Source of the DNA: an uncultured Synergistales bacterium
GTDB lineage: Bacteria > Synergistota > Synergistia > Synergistales > Aminobacteriaceae
Direction: 5' to 3'
Length of the DNA: 35,260 nt
Assembly: GCA_905233455.1 (NCBI GenBank)
Contig: CAJOES010000008.1
Coordinates: forward strand, 1-35,260
Shown here: positions 10,699-17,630 of the stretch, in pieces
How positions within the stretch are numbered: position 1 is the first letter of the stretch
Layout of the letters: the number at the start of each line of letters is the position of its first letter
The notes under the pieces: generated by a model
Told to the model about the DNA's origin: nothing
Database searches by the model: none
What the model saw: only the letters and a program-made list of their open reading frames with translations
Program-made: the position numbers and the translations under genes

Positions 10699-11439
10699 TC
10701 AACCTTGCGTGTAGACTCTCCACGTTAGAGCTTCGCACTGCCACGTACTGCCCCCCGCAGAAATATGAGCCTCGATAGCTTCCGCATCATTCCCTATAGG
10801 TGCGGCCAGATGAGTAACGCCCATGCGCGAAAACAGTTCCGGCAGGGCGGGAATGCCCGGACCCTGCATGAAACAGCCATTCTTCTCGCGCAGGATATTC
10901 TGTGTGGACATCAGCCACCGGTCCCGGACAGCTTCAGGAGAGAGCCATACCCATTCGGCTTCACGGACTCCCCGCGAAATTTCCGCTTGCGCAAAACAGT
11001 CTTTCCGTCCTGCGCACCTGTCATCGAACACCGCAATACGCCATCCCCAGTCGTGCATGAACGGCAATAGATCCCGCTCATACCCCAGAACTGCAACCTT
11101 GTCCCCCCGTGCACACGGCATCACAGCATCAAGGGGCATCCCCTCGTCCGGGCTGAACGGCACAAGAATGGAACATGCTGCGCTTGCTGCGGCGAACTCC
11201 TGCGGGAATGGTGATACATACAGTGCGGCTAATTCCTTCAGTGCTGCGGACAGTAATGCTTCCGTGTGAATGCTCCTTGCTGTGTGGGGTTCTTTCATGG
11301 AGTCGGGGACGAAACCTACGCCATGACGGTTATCTGCGGTGAGAATGCAGCTTGCGTACCAGCCGAGTATAAGCCGTGATATTTTGCTGTCTTTCTTGTT
11401 TTGTATGTGCTTGGATAAGTCCTCAAAAAAGTTATTCAC
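10699..11439 (-). CDS. DUF364-like (putative metal chelation / Rossmann-like) protein
   Basis: 246 residues. The N-terminal part (GWYASCILTADNRHGVGFVP, about 27-46) and the second half (VAVLGYERDLLPFM...AVFDDR...AEWVWLSPEAV) resemble the DUF4213-DUF364 arrangement, in which a small N-terminal domain precedes a Rossmann-like domain named for putative heavy-metal chelation. The match is by eye and moderate. The start is GTG at 11439, overlapping the TGA stop of the glycosyltransferase gene by four bases (GTGA), so translation is probably coupled. It is the last gene of the ABC-F/glycosyltransferase operon. No metal transport or cofactor genes are near to fix a substrate. Confidence 0.5.
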   Translation of the reverse strand: MNNFFEDLSKHIQNKKDSKISRLILGWYASCILTADNRHGVGFVPDSMKEPHTARSIHTEALLSAALKELAALYVSPFPQEFAAASAACSILVPFSPDEGMPLDAVMPCARGDKVAVLGYERDLLPFMHDWGWRIAVFDDRCAGRKDCFAQAEISRGVREAEWVWLSPEAVRDRWLMSTQNILREKNGCFMQGPGIPALPELFSRMGVTHLAAPIGNDAEAIEAHISAGGSTWQCEALTWRVYTQG

Positions 11440-12270
11440 CGTAAAAGTATCTTCTTTAATTTTCTTACCGCGCCATAAAGACCGGTTCGCCTTAAAATAT
11501 TTATAATAATACCTTTGGCAGATTTAGAAGGAAAAATTAAATTCCAGATTAAAAAACAGAAAGCATGAGGCCAATCCGTTTTAAATCTTCCGGTTGTAGC
11601 AGCTATAACAGGGAATTCCTTAGAATATTTTCTGCAAACCCTGTAACATCCATAATAAAAAGTTCTTGTAGTATTGCCGGATGACAGGTGCAAAAGAACA
11701 GTGTCGCAAACATAAACGTTATACCCCCCCACCCACTAGTAATTTTGACTTAGTGTGAAGGCAGGCTTCAACAGCATATAAATGCCAGTTACTGCAAACG
11801 ACTTCATCAAAAGGATATTTCTTGAAGTGTTCAGCATAACCACCGAAGAAACACTCATCAACTGTATCACATTCCATAATGCCACCCTTTACCGGATACC
11901 ATCCAGCATCAACAATTTTTCCTGACGTGCTGAGAACATGCTTGATATTGGAATAAAAACCTATAATATCAGCTCTTGCTCCTGCTACACCTAAAATATC
12001 ATCAGCATTTATACGGTCAAGATACGACACAAATTTTGCGAGGGTGTCCGGCTCTGTCAGAAGTATATCCTGATGGGAATAGATTACGTACTTTGTATTT
12101 ATCTGGTCTTTCACAGAATTATATGCACCAGCGCATGACGTAAAGGCTTTGTTGTCCCTATTGTCTATGCCGATTATCTCACACGGGCAGGTCTGCGCTT
12201 TCAGTGTGTTCACGAAGTCGTTATATGTTTTCAGATTGTTGTAACAGCATACTATTGTTACCTCATTCAT
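11436..12270 (-). CDS. Glycosyltransferase copy 1, frameshifted at a G7 run (phase-OFF)
   Basis: The N-terminal frame (ATG 12270, AAAGGAGC about 9 bases upstream) ends at a TAA at 11719-11721, just after a run of seven G on the coding strand. The rest of the protein continues in another frame to the TGA at 11436. With one G fewer the two frames join into a single protein of about 277 residues. The fold resembles glycosyltransferase-like family PF13712: the start MNEVTIVCCYNN, IYSHQDILL near 82-90, a DTVDECFFGGYAEHF block before the run and NVYVCDTVLLHLS after it. It should transfer a sugar from a nucleotide donor to a cell-surface glycan. It lies 28 bases after copy 2, and its stop overlaps the DUF364-like start. 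In the frame seen here the product is truncated. Confidence 0.8.
11724..11730 (-). repeat. G7 homopolymer run in glycosyltransferase copy 1
   Basis: Seven C on the plus strand (G on the coding strand), preceded by GGGT. The gene reads in frame only with 6 or 9 G; with 7 it hits TAA two codons later. It sits at the same protein position as the G12 run of copy 2. Confidence 0.9.
11976..12270 (-). repeat. Direct repeat, copy 1 (5' part of the glycosyltransferase)
   Basis: The first roughly 290 bases of glycosyltransferase copy 1 repeat those of copy 2 (12836-13130). In the 270 bases ending at the start codon I count 16 differences. Similarity drops sharply after the GVAG codons. Confidence 0.9.
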
Positions 12271-12298
12271 AAAATTTGCTCCTTTGCTGATTAGCTGA

Positions 12299-13130
12299 CT
12301 AATGGATGATTTTCTTTTTGATGCTCCTTAATATTTCATAAAGACCTGCAGCCTTAAGTGTCTTTAACATTATTTCTCGCGTACGCAGATGAGGATAATA
12401 CAGCAGAGCATGAATAAAATCAGTTCTTGAAGATACACATGTTGTGCGTATGAATGGAAAATACTTTGCGTAATGCCGACATAATTTGTAAAAACCGTAA
12501 TAAAACGAAAGGGTATAGCGTCTTCCCTTATAGACTCCGTTTGAAAGATGTATGAGATAAACATCACATACATAAACGTTATGCCCCCCCCCCCCTTGGG
12601 TAATTTGACTTAATGCGCATACATGCCTCTGCCGCATACAGATGCCAGTTATTGCACAAAACATCGTCAAACGGATACCGTCTGAAGTGTTCAGCATAAC
12701 CACCGAAGAAACACTCATCAACCGTATCACATTCCATCATTCCGCCTTCTACACGCTCATTGCCCGGATATATCAGCTCGCCGGTTAAGTTGTCTATATG
12801 CTTTATGTTGGAGAACAGGCCAGGTTCGTTAAACTTTACGCCTGCCACGCCCAAAATATCATCAGCATTGATGCGGCCAAGATACGACACAAATTTTGCG
12901 AGGGTGTCCGGCTCTGTCAGAAGTATATCCTGATGAGAATAAATTACATATTTTGTTGTTATCTGATCTTTCACAGAATTATATGCACCAGCGCATGACG
13001 TAAAGGCTTTGTTGTCCCTGTTGTCTATGCCGATTATCTCACACGGGCAGGTCTGCGCTTTCAATGTGTTCACGAAGTCATTATACGTTTTCAGATTGTT
13101 GTAACAGCATACTATCGTTACTTCATTCAT
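12299..13130 (-). CDS. Glycosyltransferase copy 2, frameshifted at a G12 run (phase-OFF)
   Basis: A paralogue of copy 1 with a nearly identical first 97 residues. The ATG at 13130 overlaps the stop of the ABC-F gene (ATGA), so translation is coupled. The first frame ends at a TAA at 12579-12581, straight after twelve G on the coding strand; the remaining C-terminal part (HNVYVCDVYLIHLSNG... to the TAG at 12299) is in another frame. Eleven or fourteen G would give one protein of about 276 residues. Features are as in copy 1: HQD motif, ECDTVDECFFGGYAEHF, then NVYVCD. The middle part (about 98-130) differs from copy 1, suggesting a different donor or acceptor. The glycine run would form a poly-Gly linker inside the enzyme. 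The role in a surface glycan is inferred from family and context. Confidence 0.82.
12584..12595 (-). repeat. G12 homopolymer run in glycosyltransferase copy 2
   Basis: Twelve C on the plus strand (G on the coding strand). A run this long is rare by chance and is typical of slipped-strand contingency loci. With 12 the gene is out of frame; 11 or 14 restores it. Confidence 0.93.
12836..13130 (-). repeat. Direct repeat, copy 2 (5' part of the glycosyltransferase)
   Basis: Partner of 11976-12270 at an offset of 860 bases. The two could recombine to delete or convert one gene. Confidence 0.9.
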
Positions 13131-15178: not shown

Positions 15179-15243
15179 CTTGATTATTCCCTTTTAACAG
15201 TAGCTAATTTCCTTCACATAATTGTTGGGGAGCGGTGAAAAAA

Positions 15244-16551
15244 ATGCTCTTCAACTCATATGAATTCATTTTTGTTTTTCTTCCTGTCTGTCTCGTTATT
15301 TTCTTCTCGGCATCAAAGCTCAACAAATCCCTTGCAGTTATCTGGCTTGTATTGTCGTCTCTGTTCTTTTACGGCTGGCGGAATGTGTATTACGTTCCTC
15401 TGCTCGTTGCTTCCGTGTGCATAAATTATTTCATCAGCAAAAAGATTAATGACGGCACAGCAAAAAGATTCTGGCTCATTCTCGGAATATCAACAAACGT
15501 TACAGTTCTATGTATCTGTAAGTATATCAACGTTCTTCCGCTGGGAATATCCTTTTTCACCTTCGCGCAGACAGCATATATCGTCAATACCTTCAAGGGC
15601 ACGGCCAAGCCTGAAGGATTTTTGAGCTATGCAGAATACGTTACGTTTTTCGGTTATATCACTTCCGGGCCCATTGCAGATTACCGGGAAATGATTCCGC
15701 AGTTCAGGAGCGCAGGGACTCCGGACTATGAGATGATTGCGCAAGGGATAACACTTTTTGCTCTCGGACTCTTCAAGAAAGTATACATTGCGGACAGTCT
15801 TGCATCTTTCGTGAACGGGCTGTTTGCTCAGGCAGAATTATTGACGTTCTTTGAGGCATGGACTGCAGCATTAGGCTACAGTATGCATCTGTACTTTGAT
15901 TTTTCCGGTTATAGTGATATGGCTATAGCTGTAGGGTTCATGTTCGGCCTGAAACTCCCGGACAACTTCAATTCGCCGTACAAATCAACGAGCATAATAG
16001 ATTTCTGGCGACGCTGGCATATGAGTCTTGGCGCATGGGTGAAAGAGTATATCTATATCCCGCTCGGAGGCAGCAGGGAAGGAGACCTGAAGAGGACGCG
16101 CAATGTGATTCTTGCGATGCTGCTTACGGGATTATGGCACGGACTCGGCTGGACGTTCGTGCTGTGGGGAATGATTCACGGCGTCATGCTTGCAGTGAAC
16201 CATCAGTGGCGGCGATTGGGTTTCAGGCTTCCGGCAGTCATTGCGTGGGGTGTAACGTTCACCTGTGTAGTGCTGTGCTGGGTGATATTCAGGGCTGAGA
16301 GTCTCGGAAGTGCTGTGCATATGCTGGGAACTATGACCGGGCTGAAGGGATTTCCGCTTGAAGGCCTGCGTGTAGGAAGCAAAAAGCTGATTCTTGCACT
16401 GACGCTGATTACGGTATTTACTCCCAACACAAAAGATATATTACGGCGATTCAGGCCGGGCATATTATGGCTTGTTCTTACGTTGATGCTGTTTGTTATG
16501 GCATTCATGAATTTTTCTGGCGTATCTGATTTCCTGTACTTTCAGTTTTAG
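15244..16551 (+). CDS. MBOAT family O-acyltransferase (AlgI/DltB-like)
   Basis: 435 residues from the ATG at 15244. A GTG at 15235 is only two bases from the GGGGAG, so the ATG at about 11 bases is preferred; MLFNSYEFIF is the usual family start. It is a polytopic inner-membrane protein with the family blocks LPLGISFFTF, YSMHLYFDFSGYSDMAI, FNSPYKSTS...DFWRRWHMSLG...YIYIPLGG and the catalytic His in GLWHGLGWTFVLWG. It moves an acyl (usually acetyl) group across the membrane for O-acylation of an extracellular glycan, with the AlgJ/AlgX-like protein from the next gene (21 bases downstream) as partner. Oddity: the loop that normally separates KYxN from LPLGISFF by roughly 20 or more residues is almost absent here. 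Confidence 0.92.
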   Translation: MLFNSYEFIFVFLPVCLVIFFSASKLNKSLAVIWLVLSSLFFYGWRNVYYVPLLVASVCINYFISKKINDGTAKRFWLILGISTNVTVLCICKYINVLPLGISFFTFAQTAYIVNTFKGTAKPEGFLSYAEYVTFFGYITSGPIADYREMIPQFRSAGTPDYEMIAQGITLFALGLFKKVYIADSLASFVNGLFAQAELLTFFEAWTAALGYSMHLYFDFSGYSDMAIAVGFMFGLKLPDNFNSPYKSTSIIDFWRRWHMSLGAWVKEYIYIPLGGSREGDLKRTRNVILAMLLTGLWHGLGWTFVLWGMIHGVMLAVNHQWRRLGFRLPAVIAWGVTFTCVVLCWVIFRAESLGSAVHMLGTMTGLKGFPLEGLRVGSKKLILALTLITVFTPNTKDILRRFRPGILWLVLTLMLFVMAFMNFSGVSDFLYFQF

Positions 16552-16571
16552 ACATTAAGAGGTGTTTTGAA

Positions 16572-17630
16572 TTGAGCGCGAAAAAATATGTGTTATGGGT
16601 TATAACTGTACTGTACGTATTGCTGGCAGGCAGTATCGCTTTGTGGCACGGGTGCGTTAAGCAGATGTTCAGCCAGAGAGATTTAAACCGTCTCGGATAC
16701 TTCGCGGGAAATGAAGATATTATTTCTCCGAAAGAATACTCAATGTATCGTACTGAAATGAAGGACTATCTTGAGGGCAGCATGAGGGAATCGTTTGATG
16801 TGATCACTATCGGGGATTCATTCACAAACGGCAGGAGAGGAAGCTGGTATCAGGATTATCTTGCGGAAAGATACAATATAAAATCCCTGAATTATTTTGG
16901 GAAAAATCTATGTCTTGAGGATTTATACATGCTCATATCTTCAGGACTGATTGACGAGATACATCCGAAAGCCGTTATCCTCGAAAAAGTTGAACGCGGG
17001 GTCCAAAATGAACTTGGCAAAACTAAAATAAATTTAATTCCTTCAGATAAGAAAGATATATACATACTTGCTTCAAAGAAAAATACGAATGCTGCTCAAA
17101 TATCAAATGGTATTTTCCCTCCAGTCATGATAAAAGCCAGCATGAATTTTCTAACAAGTAATCTTATGCGCATAATTAATAGTGAACGTTTAAGCAACGA
17201 AGCATACACAGCAGAACTTGACAGAAATCTATTCACGAACGTAAAAAATGAGCATAAACTTTTGTTTTACTATTACGACTTGAATTACCTTGAGAATCCT
17301 GCTGATGCCAAAATGATAAATAAGAATCTGAATGCTGCTGCTGAAATTCTGAGTGAAAAAGGTATCAAATTAATCTTCATGCCGTGCGTTGATAAATATG
17401 ATCTCTATTACCCTTACATTAAGGACAAGAAAGGGAGGCCGGAGAATAATTTTTTCCCTGCAATGAGGAATGTACCAGACAAGAAATATATATTCATAGA
17501 CACTAAAGCGATTCTTCGGAAAGCATTAGGACGGGGAGAAACAGATTTATACTGGTTCGGTGATACTCATTGGAGCTGGAAAGGCTTTGAATTAGTTTGT
17601 GATGAAATCGTGAAATATTTACAGCCTTAA
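16572..17630 (+). CDS. AlgJ/AlgX-like SGNH (DHHW family) glycan acyltransferase partner
   Basis: 352 residues, starting at TTG 16572 with AAGAGGTG about 8 bases upstream. One N-terminal membrane anchor (about 6-26) places the rest in the periplasm. SGNH features: the nucleophile block TIGDSFTNG near residue 80 and the C-terminal GDTHWSWKGFELV (about 330-342), containing the catalytic Asp-x-x-His of AlgJ/AlgX/DHHW proteins. It should place the acyl group exported by the MBOAT protein onto a polysaccharide. The middle of the gene (about 17000-17350) is AT-rich relative to glgB. It is co-transcribed with the MBOAT gene. Confidence 0.85.
   Translation: MSAKKYVLWVITVLYVLLAGSIALWHGCVKQMFSQRDLNRLGYFAGNEDIISPKEYSMYRTEMKDYLEGSMRESFDVITIGDSFTNGRRGSWYQDYLAERYNIKSLNYFGKNLCLEDLYMLISSGLIDEIHPKAVILEKVERGVQNELGKTKINLIPSDKKDIYILASKKNTNAAQISNGIFPPVMIKASMNFLTSNLMRIINSERLSNEAYTAELDRNLFTNVKNEHKLLFYYYDLNYLENPADAKMINKNLNAAAEILSEKGIKLIFMPCVDKYDLYYPYIKDKKGRPENNFFPAMRNVPDKKYIFIDTKAILRKALGRGETDLYWFGDTHWSWKGFELVCDEIVKYLQP

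Follow-up and report, generated by a model that had tools for sequence, protein, structure and literature searches.

The window analyzed here, a 35,260-nucleotide stretch from an uncultured Synergistales bacterium, raises the question of whether a homopolymer that splits a glycosyltransferase reading frame is a genetic switch or the mark of a broken gene. On the plus strand the run is C12 (positions 12584-12595), which reads as G12 on the coding (minus) strand of a gene that we refer to as glycosyltransferase copy 2 (Table 1). It is the sole G/C run of at least 8 nucleotides in the window, and the G/C eight-mers number 5 as compared to 0.38 ± 0.66 in shuffled sequences, in agreement with a preliminary description of this DNA that considered such a run in a coding region to be beyond chance. 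That description also placed the break in frame exactly at the run, with homologous protein (NVYVCD...) continuing in another frame, and this is borne out by alignment: translation from the ATG at 13130 ends at a TAA directly past the run (12579-12581) to give 183 aa, and the out-of-frame continuation, which reads HNVYVCDVYLIHLSNG...FYKLCRHYAKYFPFIRTTC... and ends at a TAG (12299-12301), aligns with intact orthologues over the conserved CD..L.H.S.G, FY.LCRKYA and TTC stretches. Its frame arithmetic, by which 11 or 14 G would restore the full protein, fits the frames that flank the tract. The count of 12, and hence the OFF state of copy 2, is uncertain, because assemblies of metagenome-assembled genomes (MAGs) can miscount G runs.

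Table 1. Features of the two glycosyltransferase copies in the window and promoters whose spacers hold a G tract (boxes separated by spacer length).
Feature	Position or promoter	Strand	Remarks
Copy 2, 5' part; Glyco_tranf_2_5 glycosyltransferase, 183-aa truncated product as assembled	12579..13130	-	frames, Pfam
G12 tract (C12 on +), frame-breaking	12584..12595	-	run count, shuffles, frames
Copy 2 flank motif GTCAAATTAC, AATTACNYA type, imperfect dyad	12600..12609	-	4 nt upstream of G12 tract
Copy 2, 3' part; C-terminal third, other frame (HNVYVCD...KKKIIH)	12299..12583	-	stop TAG 12299-12301
Copy 1, 5' part; paralogous glycosyltransferase, 183-aa truncated product	11719..12270	-	stop 11719-11721
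Copy 1 interrupted tract GGGTGGGGGGG, homologous position, frame also broken	11724..11734	-	
Copy 1 flank motif GTCAAAATTAC	11739..11749	-	
Copy 1, 3' part; other frame (YNVYVCDTVLLHLSSG...KKILLR)	11436..11723	-	stop TGA 11436-11438
L011	TTGATT-19-TATAAT		tract in promoter spacer
L012	TTGAAT-19-TATAAT		tract in promoter spacer
L013 and L029	TTGACA-20-TATAAT		tract in promoter spacer
L028	TTGATT-18-TATAAT		tract in promoter spacer
L034	TTGACA-20-TAGAAT		tract in promoter spacer

What the truncation removes can be judged from the protein family. The two copies match Pfam PF13712 (Glyco_tranf_2_5) with 43.1 and 44.3 bits against a cut-off of 27, and relatives were found in 21 of the 43 genomes of the genus; many of these orthologues are complete proteins of ~250-290 aa that run unbroken across the tract site, a variable loop, and contain no tract. 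A structure model of the intact orthologue L070 (mean pLDDT 91) places the tract position in a loop between a helix (residues 164-175) and a strand (residues 182-185). The model meets the criterion for a GT-A fold, as GT-A enzymes, SpsA and GalNAc-T2 among them, come next after its best PDB matches, 2nxv and 2qgi. The closest solved structures are thus those of Majastridin from Rhodobacter blasticus (2nxv) and its UDP complex (2qgi), which share the fold of the window's glycosyltransferase family (profile E 8e-9, Foldseek E ~1e-12) at an identity of 18%, and the similarity to 2qgi continues beyond the tract position. Given the location of the tract in this loop and a structural match that runs past it, the 183-aa form, as judged from the model, lacks the final third of the fold; its inactivity is an inference.

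Copy 1 has a longest G run of only 7, yet it is broken at the same place as copy 2, and with its interrupted tract it may be permanently off. In orthologues from other genomes the tract site reads G7AGGG (L071, broken), G7 (L073, in frame), GGGTG7 (L076, broken) and G7 (L089, broken); the tract at this loop seems to have been gained, lost or eroded more than once within the genus, an inference made without a tree. The two copies (11436-12270 and 12296-13130) are ~95% identical in their first 240 nt and only ~40-80% identical thereafter, a pattern which suggests that segmental gene conversion may have acted on them. Near these genes, the plus strand of the window (15235-17630) encodes an MBOAT acyltransferase and, after it, a protein with a weak likeness to AlgX, a pair that suggests polysaccharide O-acetylation.

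The G12 run is one of many in its genome, a 2.49-Mb draft MAG of 166 contigs in which the window is contig 8. Whole-genome counts were obtained from pattern searches only; the regions that were fetched had been preselected for tracts. There are 38 runs of at least nine G (lengths 9-15, mode 10), and run lengths are bimodal, with 18 runs of exactly G7, 3 of exactly G8 and 38 of G9 or longer, a gap that is not the tail of a chance distribution; poly-A of at least nine yields 25 nested matches genome-wide as compared to 98 for G. A contingency gene should contain a repeat longer than chance inside its reading frame or its promoter, which the G12 run and the genome-wide gap at G8 satisfy, and changes in repeat length should toggle a full-length and a truncated product, which is satisfied on the strength of reading frames and intact orthologues only, without expression data. 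A Pfam match was obtained for 23 tract genes, and by our own grouping 16 of them belong to the glycan genes: eight glycosyltransferases (GT1, GT2, GT87, GT92-like), two pyruvyl transferases, two FkbM and one TylF methyltransferase, two epimerases and FdtA. Among the remaining genes are an ABC exporter, a hybrid histidine kinase, a TPP enzyme, an iron alcohol dehydrogenase and a sugar kinase. The frame is kept at 10 of the 22 internal coding tracts and broken at 12 (7 by one shift, 5 by the other), which is roughly the split that drift predicts; three of the 22 adjoin assembly Ns. Among 107 tracts in four genomes, 6 are located no more than ~50 nt from the start of a contig, where 0.26 would be expected (P ~4e-7), as is anticipated if assemblies end at tracts of mixed length or at sites of failed reads. 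Loss of mismatch repair was rejected as the cause of the tracts, since mutS, the only such gene searched for, is present. Campylobacter and Helicobacter are without MutS and Neisseria possesses it, so its presence does not exclude slippage.

Runs of at least nine G were found in all 18 of the genus genomes sampled, and tracts in the same place differ in length between species. One orthologous or paralogous set has G9, G13 and G12 (L015, L148 and L184), and others have G10 and G13 (L025, L047), G11, G14 and G16 (L037, L141, L161), and G12, G10, G11 and G13 (L112, L114, L172, L173). Tract length alone does not give the frame, because small flank indels accompany the tracts. These differences were seen between species only, with no read-level or same-species comparison. 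In five genomes examined from other families the G runs are mostly short and composition-driven, chiefly G9.

Tracts also occur outside coding regions. The criterion for a porA-type promoter, a homopolymer between the -35 and -10 boxes, is met by six other tracts of the genome (Table 1). When five genomes and named relatives are considered, 13 of 145 tracts occupy such a spacer as compared to 2.8 (maximum 6) for shuffled flanks, and several of the 13 carry exact TTGACA/TATAAT boxes. Genes downstream of L011, L013 and L028 have signal-peptide-like starts, giving these loci a porA-like appearance. In Neisseria meningitidis porA a G/C tract is likewise located between the two boxes (PMC3639595), and here at least three such tracts front exported-protein genes, with spacers of 18-20 as assembled; the genes differ, and switching by the spacer tracts of this genome is inferred only. 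Two unrelated genes (L013:2900-3100 and L029:1900-2000) share a near-identical 51-bp promoter unit, TTGACAGATA-C10-TTAACGTATAATTGCTGAAAAGTCAA, and a similar unit is present at L187 in another species. Behind its tract promoter, L013:3096-4295 encodes a protein of 399 aa that looks exported and whose C-terminal tail, GGGCDTGLGFLGLMLALTLLRRK, we take to resemble a Synergistes-type sorting signal.

Many tracts are preceded, mostly at 1-6 nt, by a near-palindromic GTAA-W(1-3)-TTAC or AATTACNYA motif, which was discovered by inspection among many comparisons before being checked against controls and additional genomes. The pattern [AT]{4}AC occurs within 20 nt upstream of 68 of 136 tracts as compared to 29 of 400 control G5-6 runs, and GTA[AT]{2,5}TAC precedes 24 of the 136 tracts and none of the 400 controls. 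When these flanks were shuffled 1000 times the latter pattern was found 0.7 times on average (maximum 5), so plain AT-richness was rejected as its origin. Thirteen of the 23 distinct GTAA-W(1-3)-TTAC sites in ~460 kb adjoin a tract, and a downstream TAT accompanies 24% of tracts versus 2% of controls. With the motif defined, another 30 tracts were drawn from six additional genomes, and [AT]{4}AC was present at 13 of them and the dyad at 2. AATTAC-N(1-8)-G9 is found in 24 of 43 genomes of the genus versus 2 of 140 other Synergistales (Fisher 3e-16), a value that ignores kinship, as genomes of one genus are non-independent and this genus is also richer in G tracts. Tracts with the motif begin at any of the three codon positions, which rules out a protein constraint, and a codon effect was rejected; a general Synergistales property was rejected too, as the runs in other families are mostly short G9 runs, driven by composition, that lack the motif. 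Flanks are more alike within than between genomes (z 9.0; control region z 0.9), and local composition may explain part of this likeness. The motif is not universal, since L016 (G14) is without it and its orthologue L150 in genome G017 has it, and in genome G012 motif-like words are located downstream of the tracts, not upstream.

A scan of named genomes for the motif matched the ruminant-stomach Synergistaceae MAGs RGIG1612, 3696, 3411 and 3256, as well as two uncultured Fretibacterium MAGs, and on this basis the genus of the window is assigned, by inference, to Synergistaceae. Matches in Helicobacter and Bacteroidales, a multicopy repeat and mostly single matches, were taken as unrelated or chance. 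In Helicobacter sp. 13S00477-4 a repeat with a G10-11 tract recurs in seven near-identical copies (L096, L102, L107, L109, L113, L120 and L124), six of which hold a second G10-11 tract on the opposite strand, in a repeated signal-peptide-like sequence; these copies look like a phase-variable cassette family. In another Synergistales family, three loci of genome G021 (L200, L210 and L215) share a multicopy repeat in which G9-11 comes after aacccttgcggcgcaagggttc, a hairpin-like element beside a G run, and a Spirochaetaceae MAG (L126:6897-7435) contains two close copies of one flank with G8 and G9 tracts. We advance only tentatively that the motif, in species-specific dialects, is a functional cis-element that sets where G tracts arise or how often they slip, for example via a lineage-specific protein; AT-assisted melting and shared descent of the tracts are alternatives. 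If it is a cis-element, tract mutability in the genus would not depend on the homopolymer alone but would be steered by its sequence context. In the open-access literature we found no tract-flank motif described for other phasomes.

Could the break at the G12 run be an artifact of assembly or sequencing, the true run being in frame and invariant? The genome is a draft MAG of 166 contigs, Ns lie beside several tracts and homopolymers are difficult to count, but a miscount cannot create the length gap around G8, the bias towards glycan genes, the flank motif or tract positions that are kept across independent assemblies, and it leaves the break in copy 1, at a run of only 7, unexplained; we give this reading very little credence. 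A related concern is that copies 1 and 2 are decayed pseudogenes, broken once and remaining so. Both are indeed broken, copy 1 has only an interrupted G7, and L071, L076 and L089 are broken at interrupted or short tracts at the same site in other genomes. For copy 1 alone this reading is plausible. As an account of both genes it is improbable, as both 3' halves remain open and resemble intact orthologues for ~95 codons, and 10 of the 22 internal tracts genome-wide are in frame.

It has also been considered that the DNA is fixed and that programmed slippage along the G run, transcriptional or ribosomal, yields both protein forms. Slipping at the RNA level is possible at long homopolymers (PMC3711429), but all three frame relations are present at the tracts of one genome, orthologues differ in tract length and promoter-spacer tracts cannot be explained in this manner, leaving scarcely any room for this possibility. 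We conclude with high confidence that the G12 run belongs to a genome-wide set of contingency tracts, or switches, that undergo slipped-strand phase variation, because run lengths are bimodal, tract genes are largely glycan genes, frames are mixed, tracts occupy promoter spacers, orthologous tracts differ in length and contigs start at tracts. The preliminary proposal of a phase-variable gene is thus supported by the genome-wide pattern, with switching strongly inferred and no within-clone length change observed; the proposal overlooked the break at the same site in copy 1, the genome- and genus-wide extent of the tracts and their flank motif.

In the mechanism we propose, slipped-strand mispairing at replication would occasionally add or remove a G in the G12 run, moving copy 2 between a full-length (~280 aa) GT-A glycosyltransferase and the 183-aa product without the C-terminal third. 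The ~38 G tracts would form one genome-wide switch set in which intragenic tracts switch translation, mostly of glycan genes, and about six spacer tracts probably adjust, via spacer length, the transcription of genes that include at least those for exported proteins. The predicted outcome is many surface-glycan variants within a clonal population; the lineage very probably switches its surface coat on and off through G-tract miscounting. The sequences themselves establish the anatomy, the frames, the genome-wide pattern, the kept tract positions and the differences in length between species; slippage in living cells, loss of activity on truncation and the surface phenotype are all inferred.

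The preliminary description regarded G-tract switching as new for such an organism, and likewise none of the open-access papers that we consulted describes phase variation in Synergistetes or Synergistaceae. The present set would add a host-associated Synergistota clade to the few lineages with dozens of surface-glycan G-tract switches, here in commensals with MutS present, and the flank motif provides a handle on whether contingency tracts are merely slippery homopolymers or are placed or tuned by neighboring sequence. For annotation, frame-broken glycan genes in these MAGs should be checked for a tract before they are called pseudogenes. The set closely resembles the poly-G/C phasomes of Campylobacter and Helicobacter (PMC6321876, PMC2823697), in which intragenic G tracts likewise number tens per genome, peak near a length of 9-10 (as documented for Campylobacter in PMC6321876), and leave surface-glycan genes in a mixture of ON and OFF states. 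However, the present genome belongs to an unrelated phylum, has MutS and carries an AATTACNYA or GTAA-W-TTAC motif before many of its tracts.
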